From Xestospongia muta (Eukaryota > Porifera > Demospongiae > Haplosclerida > Petrosiidae): a stretch of 64,000 nt of DNA. Positions 2,629 to 64,000 of this stretch are shown here, in pieces. Both the position numbers and the translations under genes were made by a program. Positions within the stretch are counted from its first letter, which is position 1. Every line of letters begins with the position of its first letter. The notes under the pieces were generated by a model. It was given only the letters and a program-made list of their open reading frames with translations. It did not search any database and had not been told where the DNA came from. The stretch spans positions 1,932,038 through 1,996,037 of the forward strand of contig OY848923.1 of NCBI GenBank assembly GCA_963693285.1, given 5' to 3'.

Positions 2629-5600
2629 ATGATCAGAGTTATTGTCATCTTGATGTTACTGGATTGTTACTGCAATGCTATTGTGGACATTGACAAAAGA
2701 ACCAGAGGTAATAATGACACTTAATAAATATACTTTATATATTAAATATTTCCTAGGTATTCCTATGGATGTCTCACATGAAGGGAATTTCTTTTGTTTT
2801 GCCTTCATAAGAAACAAAGCATGCACTGAACCCGGTGGTGCAGAAGCTCCTAGAAATGTAGGAATCTTTATAACCACACAAAACTCAAATCCAGTTGGTT
2901 ATCGAATTAGATCTGGTAGTACTGGCTACACAAGGAATGGTACAGTCACACCTGGAACAATTGTAAGGGAAGAATATATGACACCAAATGTAGAAGAAGT
3001 GAATGCAGGAACAACTTCAGCTGGTATAATTGTGGAAACAATTAATTCAAGTCAAACAATTCAGGTGATGGGATTTAGTGATTCTTTATGTTCTAGTGAT
3101 GGTTTTCTAGCTGTTCCAATAATACAATATAAATCAAATTTTACATATGGTTATGCTAGTTTAACTACATCAGCTCGAAGTTTTAACAGCATGGTAGCTG
3201 TAGTTGCTTGTAGTGACATAGCAGAGAGTGATATTACGTATTCAACTGAAAATAAAGCTACATTTTTTGTAATTACTCCTTATGTAAAAGGTGGATTTGC
3301 AAATCCTGCAAGTGGAGATTTTTTTTCAGGAACAATGAGTGAATATAACACTCTTGGTTTGCGAAGGCCTCAACAATATGATTTTACAGGTTTTCGAGCT
3401 AGTTCTAATCAACCAATTGGTTTCATGACTGGACATGAATGTGCAGAAATACAACTAGGTGAAGATACCTGTGACCATATTATTGAACAGATACCTCCAT
3501 CTTATACATGGGGCTATAACTTTTTTGTGGCTCCATTTGAAGAAAGAACAGGTTATGTATTTAAGGTCTGGCCAAGATATGAAGGTGCTTCCTTCACAGT
3601 GTATTGCTCTGATGGAACAAACTTTAACATCTCAAACTTTCAATTTAATGAAATCAATGTAGACAACAGACAAAGGTTTGAACTAAACAGTCAATCTTAT
3701 TGTTGTATCCAGTCTGATCGACCATTACTTGTTATGCAGTATGGTTTCTCACATGAACATGATAATAACAATCAATTTGGTGATCCTAATATGGTTTTAG
3801 TAGCTCCTATCAGCCAGTATTTGAACCAACATGTCTTTACAACTAATGTCAGTATGTATACTAGACAAAATGATGATTTCACATCTCACTATATATCAGT
3901 GACTGTGTTAACAAGGTACTTTGTTCCTAATGCCATATTACTAGATGGTATACCATTAGAACCTAATGTTACTAAATGGAGTATTATTAACTGCAGTCAA
4001 AATGATCCATGTGGTTATGGTATTAGTAAGAGAGTTAACATTGGTACTCATACAGTTCAACATACCAACCCAAATGCTTCCATTAATGTTATTGTATATG
4101 GTTGGAGAATTGAAAAAGGATATGCCTATCCAGCTGGATATGGTATGACTCCTGTAGGAGGTGAGTGGTATACAAACAACTAACCTTCTCTATACTCTTT
4201 CAACACATAGAAACACTCTACTCACTTGTTGCACTCAATGAATCAGGACTAGAAAATAGTCAAGGACCAATGATTGTTCGAGTATATCGATCAGGAGATG
4301 TCAGTCAATCATCAACTGTAAATTTAAGAACATTTACTACATGTAAGTTATGTCAAATGCTGTAGTGGATATTTGATTAACAGTGTTTTCTCTCCTTTCA
4401 TATTTATCCTCAGCTGGACACAATGCAGCAACAAGTCAGTTTAAATAATAATATTGTATAATTATTCAAAGTAATATCTAATCTGTTAAGAAATGATAAA
4501 CCACATTTTCCTTTATATAAGTGACAATGTTATAAAGAGATTGACCTAGCTATATAAAGTCAATATTATTCTACAGTTGGACCTAGTGGTGACCTCATAT
4601 CACAAACCCAGACAGTTTTCTTTGTATCTGATCAGACATTTGTAGATACCTCATTTGTGTTCATGGATGATACTACACTTGAATCTGATGAAACATTTGG
4701 TGTTGAACTTGTTTCAAGAAATGATCTGACTTTTGGTGTGCCATCCAGTGTTATACTGACAATTATTGATCATGACAGTGAGAGATATTTTATTATTTCA
4801 ACATTATTATTCTAAACAAATGCAGGTATAACAATCTTTTTTAATCCTGTTCAATATAATATCACTGAGGGAGATAGTGCTATAATAGTTACACTGAGAG
4901 TTCAGACTTCCCAACCACTTCTCAAATCTTCTCGTATTAGAATAACAGATCAGTCCACGGGATCAGCTACAAGTAAACTTTGTTAGTTTTATAATTGATA
5001 AGTAGATAATTTGTCTTATAGGAAATGTAGATTATGTAGCCTTTGATAGTTTCATTGATCTTCAAGCTGGAACTACTGAGTTCACATATAATGTCACTAT
5101 CAGATCAAATGCAGCAACTGAACAAATCGAAACATTTAATGTTATCATGTCTTTTGTATTGGAAACATCACCAATAGTCACTCAAAATACAGCAACAGTT
5201 CAAATAGCTGATGTTGATGGTTTGTCATATAATTAATATACCAGTAATTGGTCATATTTCAATAAATATTCTTTCAGAAGTTATAATTGGATTTGATAAA
5301 GATAACTATAGAATTGATGAGAACAAAGGCTATATTACTGTTACTTGTACAGCAAGTGGACCAGTCCTTACTAATATCACTCTTAATATTCAAGATAGTC
5401 CTAATACAGCACAAAGTTAGTTATCAATATACCATAATAATATATCATTGTGATATCTACTATTAGAACCTGATGATTATATTGGATTTAATCAGAACAT
5501 AGTTATACCTCAAGGACAAACCTCAGTATCATTTAATATCACAATTACTAATGATGGTAGATCAGAACTTGATGAAGACTTTTCTGCAACAATTAGTCTA

Positions 5601-6482
5601 GTTTCAGGAGATAAAGTTATAATTGATGAAAATTCTATTACAACTACTATAACAATTAACGATACAGACAGTGAGTTTATTACTTTAAACAAAAAATCAT
5701 CATGACAGTAAACTTGATTTACTTTTAGAGTCTACATACTACTATTCAACTAGTACAGATATCAGTACATCTAGTTCCTTGATTTCAGTTGATTCATCAG
5801 TTGCCATAACTACAGGTAATAAATTCAAAATAACTTATTTGACATTTGTTTTAACAGTCCTAACTTTCAGACTCTGCAGACAACAATTCCATTAGTACTG
5901 GGGTAATAATTGGTTTAGCAGTAATATTGAGTGTTTCTTTTATTATTATTATTATTCTGGTCTTTATTGTCATTTTTGTAAATAAGAAAAAGTCAAATAC
6001 TAATGAACTGAAAAGGTACTAATTTGACATCATTTCATTATAATGTTATGTCTTTTGTTTGTAGATACAAAGGAGATGTTGTTACTAGTCCAAAATCTAT
6101 TAGTGTTACTACACCAACTGAAGTGTTAGTTAATAGTTTAATAATACAACATAGTAAGTGATATTATACTTATAGTGTTCCTGCTGATCATATATATGAG
6201 AAGGTCATTGACGAGTGTTCACCAGCAGATTATGAGATACCTGTAGTTACTACTGATATATCAGTGACTCCATGTCCAGCTTATGCTACTACAACATTTA
6301 GTGAGACAAAAGTGATACCAGTAGTTACTGATGATATACCAGTGACTTCATGTCCTGCATATGTTACTACAACATTCACTGAGACAGAAGTGATACCAGT
6401 AGTTACCAATGATATACCAGTGACTTCATGTCCTCCATATGCTACTACAGCATTCACTGAGACAGAAGTGAAGATAGAGTAA
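2629..6482 (+). CDS. Gene 1: IgGFc-like/3x Calx-beta single-pass membrane receptor
   Basis: Thirteen exons are predicted: 2629-2707, 2757-4160, 4211-4342, 4414-4434, 4577-4777, 4826-4972, 5022-5219, 5278-5415, 5467-5670, 5729-5815, 5871-6015, 6065-6124 and 6176-6482. All phases agree and give 1040 residues. Exon 1 encodes a signal peptide (MIRVIVILMLLDCYCNA). It is in a different frame from the long open frame of exon 2, which is why splicing is needed. Residues 27-494 resemble the IgGFc-binding-protein N-terminal family (DFTGFRASSNQPIGFMTGH at about 235; CDHIIEQIPP at about 265). Three Calx-beta domains follow at about 495-612, 613-727 and 728-841, with DDTTLESDETFGVEL typical of the first. 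Then come a Ser/Thr stalk, a TM helix at about 880-907 and a 130-residue tail. The tail holds YEKV and YEIP plus three copies of a roughly 32-residue repeat built on DIPVTSCPAYATT and TFTETEV. It probably binds an extracellular ligand and signals through phosphotyrosines; function is inferred. Confidence 0.85.
6264..6479 (+). repeat. Tandem tail repeats in gene 1
   Basis: Three in-frame copies of a roughly 96-nt unit encode an acidic, Thr-rich stretch, each with one Tyr in CPxYxTT. Gene 5 has two copies, while genes 3 and 4 have one. The number of intracellular tyrosines is therefore changing by unequal exchange within the last exon. Confidence 0.85.
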
Positions 6483-8072: not shown

Positions 8073-8280
8073 TAATTCAGCTTCTACCTTACATGCTATG
8101 GTGAGAGAATTTAATATATCCTTATCACCTCTCTCTCTCTCTTGTTTACATAGCATCATAAAAACAATGCTCATTCTGGCTTATACCTACTAACTTACAA
8201 AACCTCTCAGTAACTTGTATCTTTGGAGAGAAAGTAAATAATATAACATGTTATAACATTGTTATAAACATGTAATATAT

Positions 8281-8615: not shown

Positions 8616-11600
8616 TTACACAAACACAAGTCTATCTTTAATAACTTGATAATTGTCTAACTTCTTACAATACTCTTTATATTGACTTGATAACCATAGT
8701 GTCCTTATTGTAGTATTTTTAGTAAGTGTTGTGCATATTGTCTTGATATCATCATTGTTCAGTGAAGTATTGTCGAGATATAGTATTGTCAGTGATGTAG
8801 TTGTTTGTATTAGTTCAGCTATTGTGCTGGTACTAACTGAAGTGATCTGATGATTACGACTGATGCTCAAGGTAGTCAATGTTCGGTTTTTGGTAAGTCT
8901 TTCACAGATATATCGGAATCCATTATCAGTGATGTTACAGTTGTAGAGTTCTAGTACTTTTAAAGTTGTATTTTTTGCTAACATGGTAGATAAGTGAGTC
9001 ATATCTTCATCTTCGATATCAGTAACATTAGACAACCATAACTGTTCAAGTGTTTTATTATCAAAGAGACTATCACTGACTTGTTTGATACCACCAGTAA
9101 GTGAAGAGGATGACAACTGTAGTGTCTTTATTGTTTTATTAGTTTTTAATATCTCTGATAATATCGATACATATTTACTGTCAAATGTAGTGTTCTGTAT
9201 ATAAAGACTCCTCACTGTACACTTATTAAGTTTGTTTAGAATAACTGCAGCACTTTTGGGAGATGATGAGAAGAGATAAATACTCCATTCTTTTCCTGTT
9301 TGTTGTTCTTTTATTAATTTACTTATAACATCTTCACTTTCTATTACACTTGGTCTAGTGAGCTCAACAACATTGTTATCATCTCTCCACCGAACACTTC
9401 CAGTGTCTCCTATTATAAAACAGAGTTAGTATATAGTATAGTACACACATAGTAATATATACTATAACACACTACAATACATAGACAATACACTGAAGAA
9501 GAAAGGAAGCCATTACTGTTTACTGAATATGGTTACTATGGCAACGAGCTAATAGAAGGAGAGGCTTATTATTAAATTTTGCAATAGATGCTATTGTCTT
9601 ATGAGAAAAGTCTACTGCTATCAAGAAATAACTGTTAACATTACAATTACAGGATGACATTTTTATAATAATTATGATCTTGTTTGCATTTGTCATAGCT
9701 AACCATGACATATATATAATGGGTATTCAAAGACATATACCTTTGATTGACTCTTTGTCTTTTGACTCTTTATCATTAGAATCCTTCAATATGTCATCTG
9801 GAACAATAAAGACATTTACATTAGAATAAACCATTATTTTTAATTTTAATATTTGTGATTTAAGGATTATCAGTATATTATTACTGTCAACATTATGACT
9901 TTGTGGTAGTAATTTTGAAACTCGATCTTTGTCGTAATACAAATTACAATACTACCTACTTGGACAACGTAATGAATTGTCTTCTTTATCATTAGTTGAA
10001 CCCTTTAACTGATCTTTTAACTCTGATATTGGTAGAGATTCTACAAGAGTATTATAAGACTATTTATATATATTGAATAGTACTACCTGTAGTTTCAGTG
10101 AGATGCAGTGTCTCTTCCTGATTGGACTGTGCTTGAGTCTCCTCAAGTCTTTCATCAGTTACTGGTTTACGAGTCTTCGATATGAATGCTAGATCTAGTA
10201 ACAACGTAATGAGAAGTCACTAATACCAGTTACCTTTCAAGCTTTGCTTTAATTCCTCAATCTGTTGGTCTCTCTTTCTTAATTGTAAAGTCAATGATGT
10301 TATTATTTCTTGCAGTGTTTCTAGCTCTTTCTGTCTCTCAGCAGACACTGACAGTATATTCTTCTCAAAAACTTTATATAAAATGAGAAGAAAATTGATC
10401 ACAAATATATTATGTAAAATATTGACAACATTGGACTTGTGATTGTTGTTGCATTAATTTACCTTCCTTTGTTTTCACAAGTGATGTCAAATGTTCAATT
10501 ATTTTTTCTTTCATTTCTCTTGTTTCTATATAAAGGAACATTAAGTTATAAATCAGATATATTATATAATAGAGAGCTTTAATAAAACAATAGTTATATA
10601 CAAAATACCTTCATTTTGTCTGACAACAGATGACATTTGCATAGTCACCTTTTTCCTCATGCTTTGTTCTAGTTCCAGGTGACTTCTCAACTCTTTTATG
10701 TTCTCTTCTACAATAGTTCTAACCTCCTATATATCAATAAACAACACATATAGTAACTGTTGTCTAATACTACTCATCTCTTACCTTGTCTCTTCTATGA
10801 TCATAAATGATACAGTGACCAATTGTAAGTTGGAGTAATCCTCTCACCTTCATTGATTCAAGAGTCTCTTGAGCTTTAGAAATAAGTAGACTAGTTAGAC
10901 TGCGTGGAAAAAAACAAGTGACAATGATGGAGTTGCCTTTTGCTAAATAACGAATCTCCACATTTCTTTCAAATGACTCTGAAAGGATATCCTCAATATC
11001 TTCTAATGTACAATCTTTAGGATTCCAATTCAAAACAAAGACAGCTGTTTCACATTGGAGAAGAGCAGGAGTATTTGTAACTTTAAACCTTTCATTTAGA
11101 CAAAGAGAAGCTTTTGTTTTTTTACAAAATGATTGAACAAAATCCTTGTATGCTTGTATATGTGTCTCAGCTTCTTTGATTTTGAATCGTGTTACAATAC
11201 CTTCCAAACAACTGATATTGATCAGTGTACAGTGATCATTAACAACATCTAGGACATCATCAATGGAGTTAGAATGAGCTATTTGAGATTTGAGGTGAGA
11301 GTAACCATCTCTAAGAAATCGTTTCATTTTATCTAGAGGTGGAGGTGTTGTGGTGATAGCTTCTCGGATATTACTGAAGGCTATTGCGTATTCTCTTTTA
11401 ATTGATCCAAAAATAGGCCCAAACTTTCGAGGAATCGTAACTTCCTTTAACACATTATCTGTAATTAATAACAATAAATAGTTCTTACATTCTTGCAATA
11501 CTAACCTTGATTTGAAGCTGAACTCTTGTCAATTGAAACTGTAGATAACCTTAGGTCTAATAAGTGATCTTTCAATGACAATTTATCAATATAAATTTAT

Positions 11601-12915
11601 CTATTACCTTGACTTAAACTGCTATCAACTGAAGCTACTGATGTAGTAGTCGATGAATTATCTAATTTGACTCAATGATATCATGATCTTAATGTATCAT
11701 ATTATACCTTCACTAACTACAGTATTAATTGAGTGTATGTCCAATATTGCATTACTAGAAAATGCCTTCTCTATGTCAATATTAGTGTTATTATTATAAA
11801 TCATATATACTTACCATAATCCTTCAACACATCCTTAGCACATGGTACATTGCTAGTAAATTTTGACAGTACACTAGCAAATACTAGCAGGTTACTATGG
11901 TTACTATGTATAGCATGACGTATAGCTCTTAATAGGACAAACAATGCTTCTGCTTCAGATTGAGATTCTGCAGTACTTTTTACTGTAGACAATGTTACTT
12001 TAGAAATAATCCTCTCTCCACAGAGCATTTCTGCTACTCTAATAGGATATTGAAGAGATTGAGAGAGAGTGCCATAATGACAACGTAAAATGTCACTGGC
12101 ACGATCTTCACAACTACTATGACCTGTCATTACTACCTCTTGAACATCAGCTATTGTTGTCTGGTCTTCAGGAAATATTTGACCTTTCAATGATAAAACA
12201 TCAAAATAAATTATTTAAATTAATTATCTCTCACTATATTCACTGATAATTCTCTCAGATAGAAATTTCGTCTCTTCAAACTTGAACAGTACAGTTGCTA
12301 CCACTTTTAACTTCTTGTGATCTGAAGATACTGCTGTATGTATAGCAGATAACAAAGTTGTCTTCTTCTCATTCAGAATGCCCTCCATTGTCTCCATTAC
12401 ATCAAGTGTCACTTCATTGATACACCTCTCGCTAAATAAGAGCTGGGACACTTTTACAGGATTGATCAGACACTGTGATAGTGTATCATTATGGCGCCAA
12501 AGAATAACAATTGTTTCAGTAGCTGAGGAGTCCATTCCTGTAATAAAAATAATGACACACACTAGCTTATCAACCAGATTAACACACCATCAGAGATACA
12601 ACATTTTCTTAATATGACCAGCTCATATTCATGAGCAATAGTGATTTCTTTAATGACTTCCTTCCTCAAAGTATCTACTACTTGTCTTCTGGTAGCATTA
12701 GGGTTGATATCTAACCACAACTCAAACATTCTTGATGTTTTGTAAGTAGAATCTTCTGGTAACTTCTGAATATCATCTCGCAGCTTCTTAGGATCCAGTT
12801 TTAACAGGATTCCTAACTGATACCATTTACTACCAATACGAATATGTTCGCATAATTCATCAAGAGTTGGTTTCTCTTCTAATAACTTCTGAAAAGAAAT
12901 GTTTCTTTCAGCCAT
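8616..12915 (-). CDS. Death domain/CARD-like/coiled-coil/LRR protein lacking NACHT
   Basis: Fourteen exons are predicted on the minus strand: 12915-12588, 12537-12235, 12183-11815, 11770-11708, 11661-11608, 11568-11506, 11458-10785, 10726-10609, 10525-10463, 10371-10234, 10194-10087, 10040-9960, 9797-9741 and 9409-8616. Phases agree and give 1070 residues. Residues 1-109 are Death-domain-like (SKWYQLGILLKLDPKKL, MFELWLDINPNATRRQV). Residues 110-210 and 211-333 are two related helical repeats that look CARD-like (TLSQCLINPVKVSQLL; TLSQSLQYPIRVAEML). Residues 394-618 are a conserved-looking region I do not recognise. Residues 619-724 are charged and probably coiled-coil (RQKELETLQEIITSL). Residues 807-1070 contain ribonuclease-inhibitor-type LRRs (NTTLKVLELYNCNITDNG). 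There is no signal peptide or TM, so it is probably a cytosolic adaptor or sensor. The small middle exons are the least certain. Confidence 0.8.
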
Positions 12916-13434
12916 TGCTTCTTCGTCGGAGCAAAGCGGAACGAAGCCACTTAATGTTCATAAGATTTATTTGATTAGGTTGGTCGATCACGTGAATACT
13001 ACAGTCGTCACATGAACATTGCTTTATATTTTAATAATGAAATCATAAAATAATATTTAAGGTAGGGTAGTCTGTTAATGAAACTATTGTTGTATTGAGT
13101 ATGGATTGTGTTAGACTTATGATGCGTTTAAAACATGTTTAATTTATACATTCTTTCGCTTGATAAATATACCAGTGATACCACTCTTCACATAAGTCAC
13201 ATTGTATCATATTCATTGTTGTAGAAACATTGTTGCATAATTTATAGGCCTATTCACATTTAATTTCATTTACTATATCAAAAAACATCTGAAATAATTC
13301 TTTACATTGCATATATTGATATACCTCTCTGTAGTAATTCATACCAGGTATGATCAGTGAAATAATGCTTCACATCATTAATAGTGTTGTCATTGATTTC
13401 ATCTGGTAATGATAATAAAAGACTATGTGTTGTA
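12916..13434. other. Upstream of the LRR gene, no gene seen
   Basis: This is 5' flank of the minus-strand gene. No coding exon is recognised. Confidence 0.5.
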
Positions 13435-17270: not shown

Positions 17271-17274
17271 CATT

Positions 17275-18384: not shown

Positions 18385-21300
18385 ATGATCAGAGTTATTA
18401 TCATTTTGGTGTTAATGAATTGTTTCTGCAATGCTATTGTGGACATTGACAAAAGAGCCAGAGGTAATAATGACACTTAATAAATATACTTTATATATTA
18501 AACATTTCCTAGGTATTCCTATGGATGTCTCACATGAAGGAAATTTCTTTTGTTTTGCCTTCTTAAGAAACAAACCAAATACGGAAACTGGTGGTGGGGA
18601 AGCTCCTAGAAGTCTAGGAATCTTTATAACCACAAAAAACTCAAATCCAGTTGGTTACAAAATTCGATCTGATAGTACTGGCTTTGAAAGCGCTGGTACA
18701 GTCACAGCTGGAACAATTGTAAGGGAAGAATATATGACACCAAATGTACAAGAAGTGAATGCTGCAACAACTTCAGTTGGTATAATTGTAGAAACAATTA
18801 ATTCAAGTCAAACAATTCAAGTGATGGGATTTAGTGATTCTTTTGGTTCTAGTGATGGATTTCTAGCTGTTCCAATAATACAATACAGATCAAATTTTAC
18901 TTATGGTTATGCTAGTCTAACTGCATCAGCACGAAGTTTTAACAGCATGGTAGCTGTAGTTGCTTGTGGTGACATAGCAGTGGATGATATTACATATTCA
19001 ACTGAAAATAAAGCTACCTTTTTTGTAATCAGTCCTTATGTAAAAAGTGGATTTGCAAATCCTGCAAGTGGAGATTTTTTTTCAGGAACAATGAGTGAAT
19101 ATAACACTCTAGGTTTACGAAGGGCAGTCCAATATGATTTTACAGGTTTTCGAGCTAGCTCTAATCAACCAATTGGTTTCATGACTGGACATGAATGTGC
19201 AGAAATAAAACTAGGTGAAGATACCTGTGACCATATTATTGAACAGATACCTCCATCTTATACATGGGGCTATAACTTTTTTGTGACTCCATTTGAAGAA
19301 AGAACAGGTTATGTATTTAAGGTCTGGCCAAGATATGAAGGTACTTCCTTTACAGTGTATTGCTCTAATGGAACAAAATTTAACATCTCAAACTTTCAAT
19401 TTAATGAAATCAATGTAGACAACAGACAAAGGTTTGAGCTAAACAGTCAATCTTATTGTTGTATCCAGTCTGATCGACCATTACTTGTTATGCAGTATGG
19501 TTTCTCACATGAACATGATAATAACATTCAATTTGGTGATCCTAATATGGTTTTAGTAGCTCCTATCAGCCAGTATTTGAACCAACATATCTTTACTACT
19601 AATGTCAGTATGTATACTGGACAAAATGATGATTTCACATCTCACTATATATCAGTGACTGTGTTAGCAAGATACTTTGTTCCTAATGCCATATTACTAG
19701 ATGGTACACCATTAGAACCTAATGTCACTAAATGGAGTATTATTAACTGCAGTCAAAATGATCCATGTGGTTATGGTATTAGTAAGAGAGTTAACATTGG
19801 TACTCATGCAGTTCAACATACAAACCCTAATGCTTCTATTAATGTTATTGTATATGGTTGGAGAGTTGAAAAAGGATATGCCTATCCAGCTGGATATGGT
19901 ATGAATCCTGTAGGAGGTGAGTAGTATATAAACAATTAACCTTCTCTATACTTTTTCAATGCATAGAAACATTCTACTCACTTGTTGCAATCAATAAATC
20001 AGCACTTGAAAGTAGTCAAGGACCAATGATTGTTCGAGTATATCGATCAGGAGATGTCAGTCAATCATCAAGTGTAAATTTAAGAACATTTACTACATGT
20101 AAGTTATGTTAAATTGTATTTAGTTAACATTGTTTTCTCTCCTTTCATGTTTATCTTCAGCTGAACACAATGCAGCAACAAGTCAGTTTAAATAATAATA
20201 TTGTATAACTAGTTTAAATTAATATCTAATTTATAAGAAATGATTAACCACAATTTCCTTTATATAAGTGACAATGTTATAAAGAGATTGATAGAGTTAT
20301 ATAAATTCAACATTATTTTACAGTTGGACCTAGTGGTGACCTCATATCACAAATCAAGACAGTCTCCTTTGTATCTGATCAGACATTTGTAGATACCTCA
20401 TTTGTGTTCATGGATGATACTACACTTGAATCTGATGAAACATTTGGTATTGAACTTGTTCCAAGAAATGATCTGACTTTTGGTATACCATCCAGTGTTA
20501 TACTGACCATTATTAATGATGATGGTAAGAAATATTTAATTATCTCCATATTATTATTCTAAACACATGTAGGTATCATAATCTTATTTAATCCTATCCA
20601 ATATAATGTCAATGAAGGAGATAATGACATAACAGTTACACTGAGAGCTCAGACTTCCCAACGACTTCCCACATCATCTTCTATTAGAATAAGAGATCAA
20701 TTCACAGGATCAGCTACAAGTAATAATTTATCAATTTTACAGTTAATGAATAGTTGATTGTTTTCATAGGTGGTGTAGATTATGTAGCCTTTGATGAAGT
20801 CATTGATCTTCAAGTTGGAGCTACTGGGTTCACATATAATGTCATTATCAGATCAAATCCAGCAGCTGAACCAACTGAAACATTTAATGCTATCATATCT
20901 TTTGTATCTGGAGGGATTCTGACAGTCACTCAAGGCACAGCAACAATTCAAATATTAGATAATGACGGTAAGAGATTTTAAATTATCTCAACACAGGTAC
21001 TCAATTACTGAGGGAAATAGCAATGTGACAGTTACACTGAGAGATATAGACACTGCTACAGTTTACTTGATATTTAATGGGCAAATATTGTAATATGCTT
21101 ACAGCCTTCTTATAATTGATTAAACTCTATATAGACAAAATTGCTGTGGACTAAATGTAATTGTCTAAGAGACCATTGAGTGTTCTGATTATACAAATAT
21201 AGAGCTACTGTCCTGTGTATCTATGTATGGAGTCTGTTTAAATTTTCTAGACATTTGTCAGTTACCTCCTGAAGTTGGACCATGTAGAGGTCAATATCCT

Positions 21301-34566: not shown

Positions 34567-34603
<37 letters not shown>

Positions 34604-37600: not shown

Positions 37601-38212
37601 TGTATCTTGTAATTGGTATAGTAATAACAGCAGCTATTTGTTTATCTTGCAGTATATTGCTTATACTGATTATCATGATTGTATGTGTTAAGAATTATAA
37701 AAAGTGCAAATTAAATGCTGAGCTAAGATTACAGTAAGCTATAAAAATGTTTAGACTATTTTAAATTTATTATCCTATGCAGAAGAAAAACTGACATGGA
37801 CATTGTCATGGTAGTCAGTCCAAGTTATGTTGTAGTAGATAAGTCAACTAAATTGTTAGTTTACTATTATTAGTTATCATTAATTGTACTAATATACTCT
37901 ATTTATATTTAGTGATGAAGAGCCGTTGTATGAGACAGTAACAAGAGACAGAATATCTCGCACAAAATATGAAATTCCACTGTTAGTTGACTGCTAGTAG
38001 TTGTCAATAATGTAATTAATCATAATTATATCTATAGAAGTGAAGTCTCAACATATGACAATTTACTAGATGAAGAACATGACATACCTGTGGTCAATGC
38101 TGGAACACATGAATATGATATACCATTATTTGTTACCACTGATATACCAGTGATTTCATGTCCAGCTTATACTACAACAACATTCACTGAGACAGAAGTG
38201 AAGATAAACTAA
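27441..38212 (+). CDS. Gene 3: IgGFc-like/Calx-beta/3 Ig/4 FN3 membrane receptor
   Basis: Nineteen phase-consistent exons are predicted: 27441-27519, 27569-28972, 29023-29154, 29226-29246, 29390-29590, 31583-31867, 32846-33130, 34155-34439, 34928-35245, 35360-35716, 35850-35956, 36076-36250, 36415-36514, 36687-36948, 37035-37074, 37568-37733, 37783-37854, 37913-37981 and 38038-38212. They give 1510 residues. After the shared head and one Calx-beta domain, exon 5 joins the Ig exons (GAT GAT G|TA CCT). Three 95-residue Ig domains (613-897) have the usual Cys, Trp and YTC (LTCTVIS, WSS, NTGTYTC). FN3-like domains lie at about 898-1003, 1004-1122, 1123-1216 and 1217-1350; the last contains VTYYNAPLSTDVSYCVF, reminiscent of receptor phosphatase juxtamembrane FN3. 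A TM helix is at about 1362-1390. The tail has YETV, YEIP, YDNL and YDIP. The length of intron 5 (2 kb, with repeats) is the main uncertainty, and alternative isoforms are likely. Confidence 0.82.
30570..31180. mobile_element. Foldback element, copy B (gene 3 intron 5)
   Basis: Same family as 17275-17880. The left arm runs from AACAGCCCTCACACACAGG through TGTGTGATGTTTATTAATC. The right arm contains AATAATAAAGAACAAGAGC, a CATCACATG match and AATCTGTTGTAGC. The centre holds GGTTAGATCAACCAAT and its counterpart GATTAGTTGATC. Confidence 0.6.
31583..34439 (+). repeat. Tandem Ig-exon units in gene 3
   Basis: Three units of about 1.26-1.31 kb each consist of a 285-nt Ig exon plus its following intron. 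Introns 6 and 7 are nearly identical for about 900 nt, beginning at the donor and including CACTTTTGATGGTATCAC. Exon and intron were therefore duplicated together, and recently. Confidence 0.9.
33801..33884. repeat. AAT/ATT microsatellite
   Basis: A trinucleotide run lies in gene 3 intron 7. It is expanded relative to the same site in intron 6 (about 32555) and is matched at about 49080-49146 in gene 4. Confidence 0.85.
34571..34601. repeat. TA microsatellite
   Basis: A TA run lies in the intron after Ig exon 3 of gene 3. The corresponding site in gene 4 (about 49839-49884) is longer. Confidence 0.85.
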
Positions 38213-47500: not shown

Positions 47501-49104
47501 GTAAAAATGGATTAGTTGATCTAAAAAATCCATGGTCATTTACATTTGCAAATAATAAAGAACAAGAGCATCACATGGTGTCAATACTTAAATATACATT
47601 ATTCAGAACAATGAAAATTCTGTTTAGCATGTTATTAGTTAGATAAAATAAATAGATGTTATAGAGTTGTCACTATGTAATCTGTTGTAGCTTTGGACAA
47701 TATGGCCCATTTCTATGTAGGCTCTGATACCACATACTTAATATTTAATAGACAAAAATTGTAATATACTTGTAGCCATCTTATAACTGATTAGACTCTG
47801 TGTATATAGGCAAGGTTACTGTAGACTAAGTGTAATTTTCTGTGAAACTATTAAGATGATTTTTTTGTGAGATTGTTTTAAAATAGTAATTTGTATTATA
47901 ATATGTATGATTTTTACTGACTTATCAAATCTTGCTCCTTTGGTTTTAAGTTCAATAAATTCAGTAGAAACCTTTATCACAGTATATAACCCACTATATT
48001 TATTGTCATATAATATCCCATTCAATCTACAGTATTACATTTCAGTGCTAAACTTGCTCCTTTATCAGTTAATGATAATTACAATTATTTTTTTACGTCC
48101 ATCTAGTACCTGCTCCTAATGTAACAGTGGATCCTGAAGTTACTATTATAATCTACAACTCTACATTCAATCTCACTTGTACTGTAATATCATTGACTGT
48201 ACCTAATATTACCTGGTCATCAACAACTATTGCCGGCCCTCCCTCACAACCACCAATTACAAGTCATATAGCTACTCATACTAGTATATTAACATTGGAA
48301 CAAGTCAAGTTGAATAATACAGGAACATATACTTGTAATGCTATCAATGAAGGAGGTAGAAGTACTGCAACAACTAATATAACTATTGTTGGTAAGGAAT
48401 GTGATAAAATAAAAATTATTATTGCTATATCATTGTATACCACTTTTGATGGTATCACTATGTTCTGGTTTAGATAAAAGCCTATAACAATGATACTAAT
48501 ACGGATTGTTTAGTGATGTGTGGATTTGTGTTTTGTGTATTGAATCTACCTTTTCTTTCCCTTTTTGGCACTGTAATTTCTTCATCTTTCACTTTTATTT
48601 TTTCTTAAAAAGCAGTTCTGTAATTGTTTGGACCATGTGCTCTATATGTATATAACAATAATTTTGATACATTGTTATATATGACTTTTGAGAGCAATAG
48701 ATGAAATAAAACCACATCCTTTAACTTCCGATGTGTATAGCATCTAATGAGTTTCATTAACCCTAACCATCAGTGCTACAATGATTGGTATGTCTGATAA
48801 TTCTCAAAACTTCTCATCACCTTCCTTCTCTACCTATATTTCTAGCACTCTATAGTCTTTACTCTGACAGTGTTGCTAATTATCCAATCTTAGTATATCT
48901 AGTCAATGTTTACTGTTAAGTTAGTATCTTCCAAAACAATTTTAGTATGATTTTTTCAATTATAATCTTGCTTATTAGTAGATTTCATTTTTTGGTATGA
49001 TCTATTCACATGGTATTGTTCATGAGAGTACTTAGATTTAATAGTAATAATATTACCTTTAAACTAGCTTCATATACTCAATAATAATAATATTATTATT
49101 ATTA

Positions 49105-49147
<43 letters not shown>

Positions 49148-49830
49148 GCAACAAATTCATTGTCAATACTGAGCTGCAACTTGCAAGAAACTGCCATTTT
49201 TTGTGAACAATTTTGAGTTATGAAATTGTTGTTTAGTCTATTCCCAAGTAATGCTTTTCTGTAGTATTAAAACCATATTGTGAAAATTCTACACATTTTA
49301 TGTGCTGGTCATAAACATTTCATTCAATAAAAATTATTATATTTCATTGCTAAACTTGTTCCTTTATCAATTGATGGTAATTACAATTGTATTAATTAAA
49401 TTTATTCTGTCCATCTAGTACCTCCTCCTAATGCAATATTAGATCCTAAAAATGCTATTGTAATCTACAACTCTACATTTGATCTCACTTGTACTGTAAT
49501 ATCATTGACAGTACCTATTATTACCTGGTCATCTTCAGCTATTGCCGGTCTTCCCTCTCAACCATCAATTATAAGTCACATAGCTACTCATACTAGTATA
49601 TTAACATTGGAACAAGTCAAGTTGAATAATACAGGAACATATACTTGTACTGCTATCAATGAAGGAGGTACTAATACTGCAGCAGCTGATATAACTATTG
49701 TTGGTAAGGAATATGATAAACTAAAAGTTATGAGAAATGATGTGATGTTTGGAAGTGATGTTTGGTATGTGTATATGATATGTTCTAGTAACATTCTCAG
49801 TGCTATAATATAGTCCTTGTACCTTGAGAC

Positions 49831-49887
<57 letters not shown>

Positions 49888-50891
49888 GCATTAAGATTTA
49901 ATGTTATAAATTTTTTTTTCGATTATGCATCCTTATACAATATTCTCTTTATAATGGTGATTGGCCATCATCTCAACTTACTGAATAATGTAACTTATAA
50001 CAGCTCAATGTAGATCATTATATCAATAATTATATAACAAGTAATAAACAATGTTTTAAATAATAAATAATGATGATACAATGCAAAAAAAGAAACACAA
50101 AATATAGGAATAAATACACAAATGAAATCTATATTAATGGAAACCTGAATAAAACTATTAGTCACTACAAATTGATTTATTGTTGCAATATCATTGTATA
50201 TCACTTTTGATGGTATCACTATGTTCTGGTTTAGATAAAAGACTATATAACAATGATATTAATACTTAATTAATATTAATTGGCTAGTGATATAGGGATT
50301 TGTGTATTGTGTATTGGTTTCTACCTTTTTCTTTCCTTTTTGGCACTGTGATTCCTACATCTTTCACTTATAATTTTTTTAAAAATCATTTTGGACCATG
50401 TGTTCTATATATTTATATATAATAATAATAATATTTATATGTTCACATTTATAATTTAAATACATTGTTGTATACAACTTTTAAGAGCAACAGATAAAAA
50501 ATAACCACATTCTTTAACTTGCTATGTCAATGAATTTATTAGTCCTAACCATCAGTGCTATAACAATGGGTATGTATGTCTTATAATGCTCCAAACTTCT
50601 CATTAGCTTGCTTCTCTGCCTATTTGCCCAGCATTCTATAGCAATTACCTATAGGAATTATCTTTCACAACACTGCTGCTAACTATGTAACCTTTGTAGC
50701 TCTAGTCAATATTTTACTGTTAAATTAATATCTTCTAAAACAATTATAGGATGATTTTTTCAATTATATTATTGCTTATTACAAGGTCTTATTCTGTTTT
50801 TTTATATGATCTATTCACCTCGACCCGTTTTACGTTCTATTGTTAATGACAATGCTCAGGTTCAGTAGTAATAATATTAACATTAAATAGC

Positions 50892-50925
<34 letters not shown>

Positions 50926-53900
50926 CATGAAAAGTAATAAGCAAAGATATTATTGTTGATACTGAGTTGCAGCTTGCAAGAAACTGTCATTTATGAACAA
51001 TTTTGAGTTATGAGATAGTTATGTAGCTTGTTCCCAAGTAATTTTTTCTATAGTACTAAAACCATATTGTGAAAACTCTACACATTTATATGCTAGTCAT
51101 AAACTCATTCAATGTAAATTATTATATTTCCATGCTAGACATGTTCCTTTATCAATTAATGATATTTACAATTATTTTTATGTCCATCTAGAACCTACTT
51201 TTAATGTAATAGTGGATCCTGAAAAAGCTACTAAAAACTATAACTCTACGTTTGATCTCACTTGTACTGTAATATCAATGACAGTACCTACTATTACCTG
51301 GTCATCAACAGCTCTTGTTGGTCTTTCTCCTAAACAATCAATTACAAGTCATATAGCTACTCATACTAGTATATTAACATTGGAACAAGTCAAGTTGAAT
51401 TATACAGGAACATATACTTGTATTGCTGTCAATGAAGGAGGTAATGATACTGCGACAGCTGATATAACTATTATTGGTAAGGAATATAATAAAATAAAAA
51501 ATTTGAGAAATGTTGTAGTGTATATATGACATGATGTTCTCAGATAGCATCATCACTGCTTGTAACTTAAGAGCTGTATAATATATGTATGTATGTATGT
51601 ATATTACTTCATTATGATTTAATGTTAAAAGCTTTTATTAATTTACCAAAAATTATGTATCCTCATACAATTATCTTTATAATGGTTAATTTGTCATAAT
51701 CCTAACTTTTTAAATTTATAACAAGTCAATTTGTTTTATTATATCAATAAATAAATAACATGTATAACTTCTATCTTATAGTACCACCACCTACCATAAA
51801 ACCTATACCAGACATTAATGTAACAACTGGACTTAATGCAACCTTTACTTGTAAAGCTACTGGATTTGGTCTTAAATATTCTTGGGAAGTACCATCTTCT
51901 CTTATTAATAATAACGGAATTGTTATTGGTGACAATACCAATGAATTGACTGTTGTTAATGTGACAAAACATGTCAATGGAATTTATACTTGTAATGTCA
52001 CTGATTTTATTGGACAAACAGACATTGCTATGGCTGAACTGATAGCTGTTGGTGAGTTTATAGACTATTGTACATTATATATTAATATGAAGTCTGTTAA
52101 TATGTGTAAATATATTAATATGGGGCTTTATGAAGTCTACTAATATGTGTAAATATCATTTGAGATTATTAGTATTGTTGATTTTTAATAAGTAGCTCTT
52201 ATGATATGTTTTGTAAGTTTGTTTTGTGACATTTTAGAAATTAATTAGCAATTGGAAATATAAGGAAATTACTTTGAGAATATTGATAGCTTACATATTT
52301 GGAATAAAATAAATGGGAAATAACTTATTTTATTGTTAATATGATTTATATTCTATTTGCACAGGTCCACAGATACTTGAGTCTAATAACACTGATTCAA
52401 TTGTTGTAGAGAATACTGTGAGGTTTTTGAGATGTGTTGTACAAAACAGACGTGATGCACAAGCAAATTTGAACATAAGATGGATCAATCAAGGAAGAGT
52501 TGTAAATGTATTAGAATATCCTTCACTTATTATTAACATAACAATGGAAGATAATAATAGGATAGTGACAAGCACATTAACTTTTAATCCTGTTAATTAT
52601 AAAGTGTTCGATCCACTAAATGGCTATAAAAATAATTTTCAATGTGAGGCATTCATTGGTAATTATATTTTTGATGTTGTCAAGAACAGAGGTGCTGTAT
52701 TAACTGTAAACTGTAAGTTAATGTAATAGAATATAAGTTGGTTATAACAAGTGCCTATAGTGTTTTAGATGTACATATTGAATGCTTGGGATATCAGTGT
52801 TTTTTTCTCCTTTAGTTGCTCCCAAGTTTATGTTACAACCATCAAGTATTGTTAAAATCAACCTTACTGATACCAAAGAACTAGAGTGTGGAGGAACAGC
52901 AAGACCTCAAATGACCATAATGTTTTATAGACACTATGACAATGGATCATCATTACTTATTGATCAAATAAAAGATGATGTGTTGAAGACAACAATCAAC
53001 AATGCTAACTATGATGATACTGGTAACTACAGTTGTCAGATGTCTAATTCTGTTGGTGTAAATGTATCAAATTTTACTATCATAATACAAGGTAAGTCAG
53101 TGGCTTTATTATAATAGTTTTAGTTTATTAAGTGTCTCTATCATTTTATTAAAAGATAGGCCAAAGCTATTTTGTAAGGTAAAAAATTAGATTGTTGAAT
53201 TAAGACTAAAAATTGTTGAAAATTTGTTCACAAACATTAACATCAACCTGACAGACCAAGTCATCCTAGTGTCTTATGAATAAATTACTAGGAGAATGGA
53301 AGTAAGATATAGATTGTACAGTCTCACAGCAAATTTTTAGTAAAATAGTTTTATATAGATATAGTTCATTTTATAATAAAGTATAAACACTATTTATTTT
53401 AGTTTATATCAGATTTACTGATAAATGTATTACTGATGTACTTATTCTCTCCAGTACTTTCTGTCTCCAGTACTGAATCTGATTTGAATAATGGACTGTA
53501 TCTTATAATTGGTGTAGTAATGGCAGCAGTTATTTGTTTATCTTGCAATATCTTACTTATACTGATTATCTTCATTATGTGCGTTAAGAATTATAAAAGG
53601 AAATTAAATGCTGAACTGAGATCACAGTAGGCTACCAAAACTTTTGATAATTATCATTAATTGTACTAATATACTCTATTTATATTTAGTAATGAAGAGT
53701 CGTTGTATGAGACATTAGCAAGTGATGAAATACCTCCTCCAAGTGATGAAAAAAAAGTGTTAGTTGGCTGCTTGTAGTTGTCAATGATCTAAATGAGTGT
53801 AATTATATCTTATAGAAATGAAGCCCCAATATATGATAATTTGCCAGATGAAGAATATGACGACATACTTGCAGCTAATGCAGTTTATGAAATACCAGCA

Positions 53901-53981
53901 CTTACTACTGATATACCAGTGACTCCTTGTCCAGCTTATGCTACTACAACATTTACTGAAACAGAAGTGAAGATAGACTAA
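44593..53981 (+). CDS. Gene 4: IgGFc-like/2 Calx-beta/6 Ig membrane receptor
   Basis: Sixteen phase-consistent exons are predicted: 44593-44671, 44721-46124, 46175-46306, 46379-46399, 46541-46741, 46790-46936, 46986-47183, 48107-48391, 49419-49703, 51192-51476, 51782-52051, 52365-52712, 52816-53091, 53455-53626, 53690-53758 and 53816-53981. They give 1445 residues. The shared head carries two Calx-beta domains, to about 727. Three 95-residue Ig domains (728-1012) are close relatives of those in gene 3; three unlike Ig or Ig-like domains follow (1013-1102, 1103-1218 and 1219-1310; DDTGNYSCQMSNSVG in the last, while the fifth lacks the usual YxC). There is no FN3. The TM exon is almost identical to those of genes 3 and 5. 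The tail has YETL, YDNL, YDDI and YEIP and one CPAYATT unit. It lacks the 72-nt tail exon of genes 3 and 5; because that exon is phase 2-2, the frame is kept. Confidence 0.82.
47232..47379 (+). pseudogene. Orphan Calx-beta exon with lost donor in gene 4
   Basis: After an intact acceptor, the exon reads ITLFFNPIQYNVTEGDS and stays open to SATN, matching the Calx-beta start exon. Its donor GCTACAAGTAA has become GCTACAAATAA, and the partner exon is replaced by repeat sequence from about 47385. It probably cannot be spliced and marks a recombination breakpoint. Confidence 0.75.
47405..47690. mobile_element. Half foldback element in gene 4 intron 7
   Basis: This is only the right arm of the family (from ATTACAATACTTATTTATT to CTGTTGTAGCTTTGG). 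It is almost identical to 30895-31175 in gene 3. It begins right after the truncated Calx-beta exon, so the element or its arm was involved in the breakpoint. Confidence 0.65.
49078..49146. repeat. AAT microsatellite
   Basis: A trinucleotide run in gene 4 intron 8, at the site homologous to 33801-33884. Confidence 0.85.
49839..49884. repeat. TA microsatellite
   Basis: A TA run of about 45 nt in the intron after the second Ig exon of gene 4. Confidence 0.9.
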
Positions 53982-57533: not shown

Positions 57534-60500
57534 ATGATCAGAATTATTGTCATCTTGATGTTACTGGATTGTTACTGCAATGCTATTGTGGACATTGACA
57601 AAAGAACCAGAGGTAATAATGACAGTTAATATTAAATATATATTTTTTTTGTATATTATATTTGTAGGTATTCCTATGGATGTCTCACATGAAGGGAATT
57701 TATTTTGTTTTGCCTTCATCAGAAACAAAGCAAACACAGAACCTGGCAGTGGTGGAGAAGCTCCTAGAAATCTAGGGATCTTTATAACCACACAAAACTC
57801 AAATCCTGTTGGTTATCAGATTAGATCTGGTAGTACTGGCTATAAAAGAACTGGTACAGTCACAGCTGGAACAATTGTAAGGGAAGAATATACAACACCA
57901 AATGTACAAGAAGTGAATTCTCCAACAACTTCAGCTGGTATAATTGTGGAAACAATTAATTCAAGTCAAACAATTCAAGTGATGGGATTTAGTGATTCTT
58001 ATGGTTCTAGTGATGGTTTTCTAGCTGTTCCAATAATACAATATAAATCAAATTTTACATATGGTTATGCTAGTCTAACTGCATCAGCTCGAAGTTTTAA
58101 CAGCATTGTAGCTGTAGTTGCTTGTAGTGATATAGCAGTGGATGATATTAGATATTCAACTGAAAATAAAGCTTCATTTTTTGTAATTAGTCCTTATGTA
58201 AAAGGTGGATGTGCAAATCCTGCAATTGAAGATTTTTTTTCAGGAACAATGAATGAATATAACACTCTAGGTTTACGAAGGGCATCCCGATATGATTTTA
58301 CAGGTTTTCGAGCTAGTTCTAATCAACCAATCGGTTTCATGACTGGACATGATTGTGCAGAAATACAACTAGGTGAAGATACCTGTGACCATATTGTTGA
58401 ACAGATACCTCCATCTTATACATGGGGCTATAACTTTTTTGTGGCTCCATTTGAAGAAAGAAGAGGTTATGTATTTAAGGTCTGGCCAAGGTATGAAGGT
58501 TCTTCCTTCACAGTGTATTGCTCTGATGGAACAAATTTTAACATCTCAAACTTTCAATTTAATGAAATCAATGTAGACAACAGACAAAGGTTTGAGCTGA
58601 ACAGTCAATCTTATTGTTGTATCCAGTCTGATCGACCATTACTTGTTATGCAGTATGGTTTCTCACATGAACATGATAATAACATTCAATTTGGTGATCC
58701 TAATATGGTTTTAGTAGCTCCTATCAGCCAGTATTTGAACCACCATATCTTTACTACTAATGTCAGTATGTATACTAGGGAAAACAATAATTTCACATCT
58801 CATTACATATCAGTGACTGTGTTAGCAAGGTACTTTGATCCTAATGCCATATTACTAAATGGTAATGCATTAGAACCTAATGTTACTATATGGAGTATTA
58901 TTGACTGCAGTCAAAATGATCCATGTGGTTATGGTATTAGTAAGAGAGTTAACATTGGTACTCATACAGTTCAACATACAAACCCTAATGCTTCCATTAA
59001 TGTTATTGTATATGGTTGGAAAATTGAAAAAGGATATGCCTATCCAGCTGGATATGGTATGAATCCTGTAGGAGGTGAGTGGTATGTAAACATTTAACCT
59101 TCTCTATACTCTTTCAACACATAGAAACATTCTACTCACTTGTTGCACTCAATAAATCAGGACTAGAAAATAGTCAAGGACCAATGATTGTTCGAGTATA
59201 TCGATCAGGAGATGTCAGTCAATCATCAACTGTAAATTTAAGAACATTTACTACATGTAAGTTATGTCAAATGATGTAGTGGATATTAGATTAACAATGT
59301 GTTCCCTCTTTTTATGTTTATCTTCAGCTGGACACAATACAGCAACAAGTGAGTTTTAATAATAATATTGTATAAGTAGTTTAAAGTAATATCCAATTTA
59401 TTGCAAAAATGTTTCATTTATCAAGGTGACAGTAATGTTAATATTGTCTTAACATTTCAATATATGATAAAGAAATTGACTGAAGTATAAAAAGTCAATA
59501 TTATTCTACAGTTGGACCTAGTGGTGATCTCATATCACAAACCCAGACAGTCTCTTTTGTATCTGATCAGACATTTGTAGATGCCTCATTTGTGTTCATG
59601 GATGATACTACACTTGAATTTGATGAAACATTTGGTGTTGAACTTGTTCTAAGAAATGATGTGACCTTTGGTGTACCATCCAGTGTTATATTGACCATTA
59701 TTGATGATGATGGTAAGAAATATTTTATTTACTTACAGTCACTAGCATATCAGTCATGAGTTCTGGATTACAAAAAGATCCTCCATAATACAATAAGAAA
59801 ATTGTAATGATACTTACTTCAATGCATTATTGTTAGACTTACGGTCACTAGTATATCAGTCATACAATAATGATCCTGGATCATCTTTTGAGCTGAACAT
59901 CAATACTGAATGTAGACTGTAGTTACTGTCAGAAAGAGGAGATTATTTACAATCAATATTATTGTCACTTCACATCCATTGTTTTCCTTACTATCAATTA
60001 TTAACAAAGAAAATGACTCTTCCAAGAGTAAGTCTTGACAGTAAACTTATGAAATGACTAGTTTTTTTCCTGAAGTGTTCAAAGTGAGACCTACAAAAGG
60101 CCATACTTTTTAGTTGAGTGCTAATACATTTCAATGGACAAGCTGAGTCATCCCTACATAGGCTCTGCTACTGCGAGCTTATATGTAATATATAAAGACT
60201 GTAATATACTTATAGTCATCTTATGATTGATTAGACTTTACATGAATAAGGTTACTGTAGACTAAGTGTAATTGTCTATGAGACTATTAAGTAAATTTAT
60301 TATACATAGCTAAATGCATGTTATTGTTTTAATTGTCAGTGAATAACTTGTAACAAAGTCTCATGTTCATAAGTTATGGAGAAACATGATGTGTTGAAGT
60401 ATACCAAAAATTGTTGAATATATCCATTGCATGTAGGCTGGAAGTCAAATATAGATTATATGGCCTCACATCAAATTATTAGTAAAATAATTTTTATATA

Positions 60501-61327
60501 GTAAAAGTTCATTTATAATAAGGTATAAGCACATTTTGTTGTAGATATACTATTAATAAATGTATTACTGATGTGCTTATTCTCTCCAGTACTTTCTGTC
60601 TCCAGTACTGAATCTGATTTGAATAATGGACTGTATCTTGCAATTGGTATAGTAATGGCAGCAGTTATTTGTTTATCTTGCAATATCTTACTTATACTAA
60701 TTATCTTCATTGTGTGTGTTAAGAATTATAAAAAGAACAAATTAAATGCTGACTTAAGATCACAGTAAGCTATCAAAAATATTAATACTAATTATTAATT
60801 ATTTCTAATAACATCTTAAATTTGTTATTGTATACAGGCAAAACACTGACGTGGATATTGTCATGACAGTCAGTTCAACTTACACTGTAGTAGATAAGTC
60901 AACTAAATTGTTAGTTTACTATTGTTAGTTATCATTAATTGTACTAATATATTATTCTATTTATATTTAGTAATGAAGAGCCATTATATGAAATGTTATC
61001 AAATGACAAAGAACCTCTTCCAAGTTATGAAAAACCAGAGTTAGTTGATTGCTAGTAATTGTTAATTGAATAATTATAATCATATCTTATAGAAATGAAG
61101 TCCCAATATATGAAGAACACAAAATACCTGTGGTTAATGCTGTTTATAAGATACCAGTAGTTACTACTGATATATCAGTGACTCCATGTCCAGCTTATGC
61201 TACTACAACATTCACTGAGAAAGAAGTGATACCAGTAGTTACTGATGATATATCAGTGACTTCATGTCCAGCTTATGCTACTACATCATTCACTGAGACA
61301 GAAATGAAGATAGACCAACTAAGTTAA
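57534..61327 (+). CDS. Gene 5: minimal IgGFc-like/Calx-beta membrane receptor
   Basis: Nine phase-consistent exons are predicted: 57534-57612, 57668-59074, 59125-59256, 59328-59348, 59512-59712, 60590-60764, 60838-60909, 60971-61039 and 61093-61327. They give 796 residues. The head has one extra codon (PGSGGEAP). After the single Calx-beta domain, exon 5 joins directly to the TM exon in phase (GAT GAT G|TA CTT), so no Ig, FN3 or Kunitz cassette is present. Intron 5 (59713-60589) still carries sequence related to gene 3 intron 5 (about 59800-59940 versus 30095-30230), which suggests loss of a middle cassette. The tail has YEML, YEKP, YEEH and YKIP plus two CPAYATT repeats. The usual stop is lost (TAG/TAA context changed to CAA), adding DQLS at the C-terminus. 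Confidence 0.83.
60195..60295. repeat. Cassette-junction repeat, copy in gene 5
   Basis: Same block as 21088-21190 (CTTATGATTGATTAGACTTT, then GACTAAGTGTAATTGTC). It remains in the intron although no middle cassette follows. Confidence 0.65.
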
Positions 61328-63550: not shown

Positions 63551-64000
63551 ATGATCAGAGTTATTGTCATCTTGATGTTACTGGATTGTTACTGCAATGC
63601 TATTGTAGACATTGACAAAAGAACCAGAGGTAATAATGACACTTAATAAATATACTTTATATATTAAATATAATTTATAGGTATTCCTATGGATGTCTCA
63701 CATGAAGGAAATTTTTTTTGTTTTGCCTTCATCAGAAACAAAGCAAACACAGAACCTGGCAGTGGTGCAGAAGCTCCTAGAAATCTAGGAATCTTCATAA
63801 CCACACAAAACGCAAATCCAGTTGATTATCGGATTAGATCTGGTAGTACTGGCTATACAAGGACTGGTACAGTCACAATTGGAACAATTGTAAGGGAAGA
63901 ATATATGACACCAAATGTACAAGAAGTGAACATGGATACAACTTCAGTTGGTATAATTGTGGAAACAATTAATTCAAGTGAAACAATACAAGTGATGGGA
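63551..64000 (+). CDS. Gene 6: sixth family member (5' part only)
   Basis: Exon 1 is 63551-63629 (signal peptide MIRVIVILMLLDCYCNA). Intron 1 is 63630-63680 (51 nt), and exon 2 starts at 63681 and runs off the window, open throughout. The visible part matches the start of the IgGFc-like domain (IPMDVSHEGNFFCFAFIRN) with its own substitutions at the variable sites, such as VQEVNMDTTS and an Asp where the others have Gly in NPVGY. What lies in its middle and tail cannot be seen. Confidence 0.85.

Follow-up and report, generated by a model that had tools for sequence, protein, structure and literature searches.

The 64-kilobase (kb) stretch of Xestospongia muta DNA analysed here, called the window (C7:1932038-1996037, where C7 is the contig that holds it), carries six paralogous genes on the forward strand, each opening with a signal peptide and an IgGFc_binding head. 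Five of these genes (A-E) are complete and the sixth (F) is cut by the window end. Models were built from sequence only by joining the exons of the five complete genes, and positions in Table 1, as well as those given below as window-relative, count from the window start. All 64 introns in the models are GT-AG and the models stay open. Exon 1, read by eye as the signal peptide, has a phase-1 end; after a short intron, exon 2 holds the entire head of ~468 residues, and the first Calx-beta domain is spread over three exons, one just 21 bases long. Phase 1 recurs at 55 of the 59 ectodomain exon ends (ends before the transmembrane (TM) exons and, for B, all internal ends), and each of the four TM exons ends in phase 2. 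One exon of A is taken to start at acceptor 5278, replacing a 25-base intron, and the 3' limits of A-E are the ends of open frames.

Profile searches support these assignments. The A head, the only one scanned singly, scored 134.1 bits against PF17517 (curated cut-off 25.6), and the remaining C7 heads share 85-90% identity with that of E, which places the heads in this family. Spliced pieces gave 97.1 bits for Calx-beta (A), 170 for Kunitz and 27.6 for TIL (B) and 76.5 for fn3, the fibronectin type III (FN3) domain (C), while the immunoglobulin-like (Ig) exons of C and D exceed a Pfam cut-off in eight of nine cases, the ninth (D, 52365-52712) having no Pfam match. A juxtamembrane exon of C reached 17.5 bits with a receptor-phosphatase profile, below the cut-off of 24.7, and this match is absent from the spliced-piece scan. 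Structure prediction for the head is confident (predicted local distance difference test, pLDDT, 88.9; predicted template modelling score, pTM, 0.91) and mostly beta, with no convincing match of the predicted model to a solved structure.

Inspection of the models reveals that the genes diverge after this common beginning. The middle consists of further Calx-beta exons in A, Calx-beta B with Kunitz/TIL in B, Ig with FN3 in C, and Calx-beta B with Ig in D, and is lacking in E. One TM module is common to C, D and E, and A has a different one; no TM is seen in the model of B, which looks secreted. C, D and E each have two terminal exons behind the TM exon, first a short one (ending LVDC or VGCL) and after it a longer one; both are in the correct phase and look like alternative last exons. 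The initial annotation had described six paralogues with signal peptide and IgGFc head, Calx-beta in the five complete ones, and a TM plus tyrosine tail in four of these five with the same TM module in three; the six forward-strand copies, the PF17517 and Calx-beta scores and the open GT-AG models bear this out. Its view that the middle differs between genes agrees with Pfam and the models, with the amendment that a second Calx-beta is found in B as well as in D, and that D has six Ig-like exons.

Table 1. Features of the window, in window-relative coordinates (SP, signal peptide; LRR, leucine-rich repeat).
Gene	Feature	Position	Strand	Remark
A	Gene	2629..6482	+	
A	SP	2629-2707	+	
A	IgGFc head	2757-4160	+	
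A	Calx-beta A	4211-4342/4414-4434/4577-4777	+	
A	Further Calx-beta exons	4826-4972, 5022-5219, 5278-5415, 5467-5670	+	
A	Stalk	5729-5815	+	
A	TM	5871-6015	+	neighbour type
A	Tail	6065-6153 and 6226-6482	+	
B	Gene	18385..23717	+	3' end provisional
B	SP		+	
B	Head	18513-19916	+	
B	Calx-beta A and B	19967-20967	+	
B	Kunitz, three	21251-21409, 21722-21880, 23059-23226	+	
B	TIL-like cysteine-rich exons	22406-23001 and others	+	
C	Gene	27441..38212	+	
C	SP		+	
C	Head	27569-28972	+	
C	Calx-beta A	29023-29590	+	
C	Ig, three	31583-31867, 32846-33130, 34155-34439	+	
C	FN3 and juxtamembrane exons	34928-37074	+	
C	TM	37568-37733	+	
C	Terminal exons	37913-37997, 38038-38212	+	short, long
D	Gene	44593..53981	+	
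D	SP		+	
D	Head	44721-46124	+	
D	Calx-beta A	46175-46741	+	
D	Calx-beta B	46790-47183	+	
D	Ig-like, six	48107-48391, 49419-49703, 51192-51476, 51782-52051, 52365-52712, 52816-53091	+	
D	TM	53455-53626	+	
D	Terminal exons	53690-53777, 53816-53981	+	short, long
E	Gene	57534..61327	+	minimal form without extra middle
E	SP	57534-57612	+	
E	Head	57668-59074	+	
E	Calx-beta A	59125-59712	+	
E	TM	60590-60764	+	
E	Terminal exons	60971-61055, 61093-61327	+	short; long, with two PAYAT units
F	SP and start of head	63551..64000	+	beyond window: Calx-beta, TM, tail
Antisense	LRR/Death frames	8619..12957	-	between A and B
Antisense	LRR	8619-9425	-	
Antisense	Death match	12565-12957	-	weak

The cluster is far larger than the window. 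A search of the genome (158 Mb, 28 contigs) with the head of E as query, in which 91 of 240 candidates were scored, located at least 27 heads at C7:1839640-2184219 (345 kb), all on the forward strand and 26 of them without a stop. The same search found at least six copies on contig C1 (two partial, one with two TGA codons), at least two matches on C10 (84% and 45%) and at least one on C2 (50%), the remaining 55 scored matches being 27-38% identical to the query. A Pfam search of the genome for IgGFc_binding (132 of 240 candidates scored) gave clusters on C1, C2, C4, C5, C13 and others, which points to a large genome-wide expansion of this domain beyond the C7 cluster. All head counts are lower bounds because the results of the Pfam search omit the C7 cluster itself. 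A 264-kb stretch of C7 that contains no N yielded 21 heads, of which one has a stop and 20 are open, together with a 26-residue head fragment at 81248 and headless Calx-beta, TM and tail pieces near -5.3 kb and 209-212 kb (all window-relative). Between 214 kb (window-relative) and the right-hand neighbouring stretch (L029), coverage consists of four head exons and three Ig exons.

Matches to the ends of these genes are confined to C7. With the long tail exon of E as query, all 40 genome matches fall on C7 (1.76-3.64 Mb), several being repeat units of one tail, and the 11 matches of the TM exon do likewise; neither exon has a match on C1 in the genome searches. A 10-kb stretch around one of the six C1 copies contains a head and Calx-beta A and, by eye, no C7-type TM or tail. 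Tyrosine motifs were counted in 15 tail exons, 13 from head genes and two from the neighbouring genes described below, with four other tail pieces left out and two open frames beyond the tails (68724, 77859) excluded as tails. YxxP occurs in all eight long tails of the head genes, a figure that partly reflects selection because four of the eight were found by a filter for tyrosines plus EP, EEP, PAY or IPV. Three of the 13 head-gene tail exons (C long, D short and one paralogue at -41 kb) each contain one motif resembling the immunoreceptor tyrosine-based inhibition motif (ITIM-like, [IVLS]xYxx[IVL]); the tail of right neighbour L029 has such a motif too, and NPxY occurs solely in the two neighbour tails among the 15. 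Sites such as YxxP and NPxY are bound by SH2 or PTB domains. Repeats of a unit of ~27 residues (for example PAYATTTFTETEVIPVVTTDIPVTP) occur in some of the tails of A, E and paralogues, with up to four per open frame; the number of units differs among tails, and the tyrosine count therefore varies between genes.

Two neighbouring stretches were read, one on each side of the head cluster. The right-hand stretch (L029-L031, C7:2226038-2256037, 30 kb), ~42 kb right of the last head, holds tandem FN3/Ig receptor genes with many Ig and FN3 exons by Pfam, a TM and a tail with YDIPVV and NPAY. The left-hand stretch (L032, C7:1810038-1820037), ~20 kb left of the first head, holds a similar gene with TM and tail, in which FN3 scores 73.9 bits and Ig falls below its cut-off. 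The first exon of the right-hand genes is V-like by eye, and that of the left-hand gene is of the same kind; neither has a Pfam match. With the tail of the right neighbour as query, 34 of 34 matches lie on C7, at 1.76-2.95 Mb. In a comparison of nine short pieces, the E tail is 41% identical to the right neighbour's tail over 85 columns (E-value 1e-13), and the A TM is 59% identical to the L032 TM over 46 residues (E-value 1e-10). Given this tail and TM homology, the IgGFc-head genes and the FN3/Ig genes therefore share a chassis. Close copies of the Ig exon type of C and D (18 at >=71% identity) are likewise confined to C7: the cluster holds 16, and two lie near 484-487 kb. The latter pair (C7 ~484243-487214), 73% identical to the Ig exon of C, stands 1.4 Mb from the cluster beside more diverged Ig exons, and this site is a possible source of the Ig module.

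The cluster contains duplicated blocks. A block of 15.3 kb is repeated at 97.4% identity (6316-21596 versus 108221-123516, window-relative), and two-gene units of 10 kb, 94-97% identical, occur in four places. Across seven head genes, head distances disagree with TM distances (r 0.16, Mantel p 0.30), which would fit an exchange of parts, seven genes giving little power. Ratios of nonsynonymous to synonymous change differ between the modules. Pairwise pN/pS is 0.48 for the TM (7 of the 11 copies), 0.64-0.69 for Calx-beta (leaving out one of the 21 Calx A2 exons and shorter Calx B2 matches), 0.37 for TIL, 0.36 for Kunitz and 1.38 for Ig (the six window copies). Counted on a tree, the Ig exon dN/dS is 1.24 (16 copies; interval 0.79-2.23), 1.34 (18 copies) or 1.40 (the window's six). 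This exon thus has the highest ratio among the modules measured, without proof of positive selection.

Among named proteins, those closest to the head are predicted ones from Amphimedon queenslandica. Of these, P0056 (LOC109589679) has a head, Calx-beta, TM and short tail with a tyrosine (by eye), the same part order as gene E, and the listed Pfam domains are head, Calx-beta, VWA and Ig in P0074 (A0A1X7TQT2) and head, Calx-beta and VWA in P0075 (LOC109586454). The predicted IgGFc head is in each case joined to a similar Calx-beta (FYS...VYRSGD), whereas the middles of these unnamed predictions differ from those of the C7 genes, and the P0056 tail gave no match to C7 tails in the short-piece comparison. 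The head-Calx core is older than this species, since it is present in predicted Amphimedon proteins. The initial annotation's picture of a constant head, a swappable middle and a tyrosine tail is thus upheld by the gene models, the phase-1 exon ends, the paralogues outside the window and these predicted relatives. Of 35 close database heads, 13 have an exact counterpart among the 26 heads of this genome that were compared; seven others, from one other contig, are 86.9-96.8% identical to the 26, none exactly, and their contig may be another haplotype or a sister species. Database homologues of the tail are all without names (25 of 25, in a search restricted by length with long proteins outside it), and several come from contigs whose listed lengths recur among the head matches.

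The initial annotation knew of no named system with this layout, and the literature searched yields no description of such a head, middle and tail. Ectodomains of the Alr proteins are of the Ig superfamily and are not known to include an IgGFc head or Calx-beta. In Hydractinia, the Alr genes are reported to lie clustered in one interval, the allorecognition complex (ARC), as a multigene family that encodes single-pass Ig-superfamily receptors and includes many copies and likely pseudogenes (PMC11067881). The C7 genes are likewise clustered and, by sequence, single-pass. They differ in that, among the five complete genes of the window, only C and D carry Ig (the right-hand neighbours are Ig/FN3 by Pfam, the left-hand one FN3 with Ig below cut-off), in that two ectodomain families carry homologous tails, and in that polymorphism and response control are reported features of Alr. 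For sponge aggregation factors, we know of no IgGFc head, TM or tyrosine tail; a Wreath domain/MAFp3 core is a feature of these proteins, and no Wreath/MAFp3 family name turned up in the general Pfam scans, in which no model was run for it by name. Aggregation factors are described as having extracellular Calx-beta, a gene cluster and a proposed role in adhesion and allorecognition (PMC10815962). Extracellular Calx-beta and the clustering of genes are what the C7 family has in common with them. The PF17517 head occurs in FCGBP, where vWD/TIL/C8 repeats follow it. FCGBP has been described as a mucus protein. The C7 genes carry Calx-beta, Ig, TM and tail instead: vWD and C8 have no Pfam match in the exons and three spliced pieces scanned, and TIL has one, in B only. 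The Ig-domain receptor tyrosine kinase of Geodia cydonium is presented as a sponge Ig receptor in an allorecognition context (PMC12018476); it is by its name a kinase, whereas the C7 tails show tyrosine motifs and no kinase-sized open frame was seen after their TM exons. A repertoire paper on Halichondria panicea names IgGFc-binding and Calx-beta nowhere except in a figure legend, where they are listed among other domains. By analogy, the C7 family would work like other recognition families that lie in clusters, the Hydractinia ARC for example. We do not assign it to one of these systems: the FCGBP layout is absent from the pieces scanned, no immunoreceptor tyrosine-based activation motif (ITAM) was found in the tail exons tested, and polymorphism or graft control is at most a putative property of the C7 genes.

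The anatomy, exon phases, copy number, confinement of tail matches to C7 and tail homology with the linked FN3/Ig genes are established by sequence. From these we lean slightly towards seeing the window as part of an exon-shuffled, fast-evolving sponge receptor complex that would signal through its tail tyrosines, with non-self recognition, microbial or cellular, as its likeliest role. In such a complex, shared start exons would supply the signal peptide, IgGFc_binding head and Calx-beta, and, with module borders placed in phase-1 introns, varied middle and end exons could therefore join without a frame break. Tandem duplication, presumably by unequal crossing-over, would multiply the combinations of modules. 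Extracellular parts would bind a ligand, whether microbial, a host glycan or a partner molecule, and in the membrane forms phosphorylation of YxxP and PAY tyrosines would bring in SH2- or PTB-type adaptors. The alternative terminal exons may decide whether the signalling tail is short or long. The Kunitz/TIL form, presumably secreted, might serve as a soluble inhibitor or opsonin. That is to say, surface display, tyrosine phosphorylation, adaptor binding, the ligand and the recognition role are all steps that we infer. An immune or allorecognition role stays, as in the initial annotation, a hypothesis, and it is favoured by the tandem duplication, the head copy with a stop, the linked FN3/Ig genes with homologous tails and the Ig dN/dS of ~1.2-1.4.

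Several results do not point towards an immune or allorecognition role. The head dN/dS is 0.52 when changes are counted on the tree of 21 copies. Variable positions of the head are residues 59, 85, 179, 204-206, 265, 371 and 377, numbered as in E. Positive selection in the head, to which pairwise pN/pS windows of up to 1.1 might have pointed, is not claimed in view of this overall count; the best 20-codon window reached 1.94 (p 0.044 uncorrected), and none survives correction for 93 windows. Nor is positive selection claimed for the Ig exon, as all three intervals include 1. An ITAM (YxxL/I x6-8 YxxL/I) is found in none of the 15 tail exons, and the ITIM-like matches share no site among the head-gene tail exons tested. 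Finally, the Kunitz/TIL members look secreted.

A narrower proposal is that the IgGFc-headed and linked FN3/Ig receptors form an allorecognition (histocompatibility) complex of polymorphic fusion/rejection loci, as for Hydractinia Alr. Two receptor families with homologous tyrosine tails in one chromosomal region, tandem near-copies and Ig exons as the most divergent part would all suit it, and the seven inexact database heads could be a second haplotype. We nonetheless consider it unlikely: the contig of those seven heads may come from a sister species, no positive selection is shown in the head, the Kunitz/TIL members look secreted, and a passage search in the main text of a transcriptome paper on Amphimedon grafts gave no match for IgGFc, Calx-beta or immunoglobulin.

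Equally doubtful is a family that serves adhesion, mucus or matrix and plays no part in recognition, comparable to FCGBP with mucin in vertebrates, in which copies would serve dosage or tissue-specific adhesion. The family name of the head, the use of Calx-beta in sponge aggregation factors (PMC10815962), the head dN/dS of ~0.5 and the form of gene B without TM are what such a family might show. It accounts poorly for a TM and tyrosine tail in four of five complete genes, for a tail homologous to that of the FN3/Ig genes, for the duplication and for Ig exons near or above the neutral rate.

That uncollapsed haplotypes in the assembly inflate the copy number, leaving a smaller real cluster, seems quite improbable, and would concern the number and not the anatomy. 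Blocks ~100-114 kb apart are 94-97.4% identical, the head at C7:2155792 is 99.8% identical to that of B, and a Hydractinia assembly is reported to have retained two Alr1 alleles (PMC11067881). Yet several units are present in more than two copies, with the 10-kb unit at four sites and the Ig exon type spread over three sub-clusters; all lie on one contig with no N in 264 kb, and many head pairs are only 84-92% identical. Least credible is that head exons and middle/tail exons belong to separate neighbouring genes. The joins do come from models, and in C, D and E head-Calx is separated from the following module by introns of 0.9-2 kb. Yet the modelled joins work without a second start, each is GT-AG in matching phase, and P0056 and P0074, themselves predictions, hold such joins in one protein.

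A bolder extension of the receptor-complex reading, which we regard as very unlikely, would make C7:1.76-2.95 Mb a sponge histocompatibility complex. Here the IgGFc-Calx-headed family and the Ig/FN3 family, the latter with a first exon of its own, would draw on a single tyrosine-tail chassis through exchange of phase-1 exons. Alternative tails would carry opposite signals, some members would be secreted, and a Death/LRR gene would be duplicated within the block, so that recognition, signalling and possibly killing would be inherited as one haplotype. We know of no settled account of the genes that underlie allorecognition and specific immunity in sponges, and the region offers mappable candidates. 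The exon design of this receptor family would make recombination harmless, and FN3/Ig receptors with homologous tails adjoin it; if graft outcome or microbial response maps here, the region would show by what route modular recognition complexes arose in early animals and allow direct comparison with the Hydractinia ARC.

Other features lie among and beyond the receptor genes. Long tandem arrays occupy ~151.4-187.1 kb (window-relative), built of ~624- and ~655-base units whose identity within an array is mostly 94-97%, and no open frame of >=150 amino acids occurs in the 152.0-187.5 kb stretch that holds them. On C1, a subtilase frame (Peptidase_S8, 39.4 bits; L033:317-751, reverse strand) lies downstream of a head copy. 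The antisense frames between A and B score 28.7 bits for LRR_4 and 19.6 bits for Death, below its cut-off of 22.6, and NACHT has no match in the five pieces scanned. The antisense frames belong to the duplicated unit but not to the receptor family, and they recur at 110593-111126 and 213928 (window-relative); the antisense region (8619-13822, reverse strand) also holds repeated unassigned pieces.

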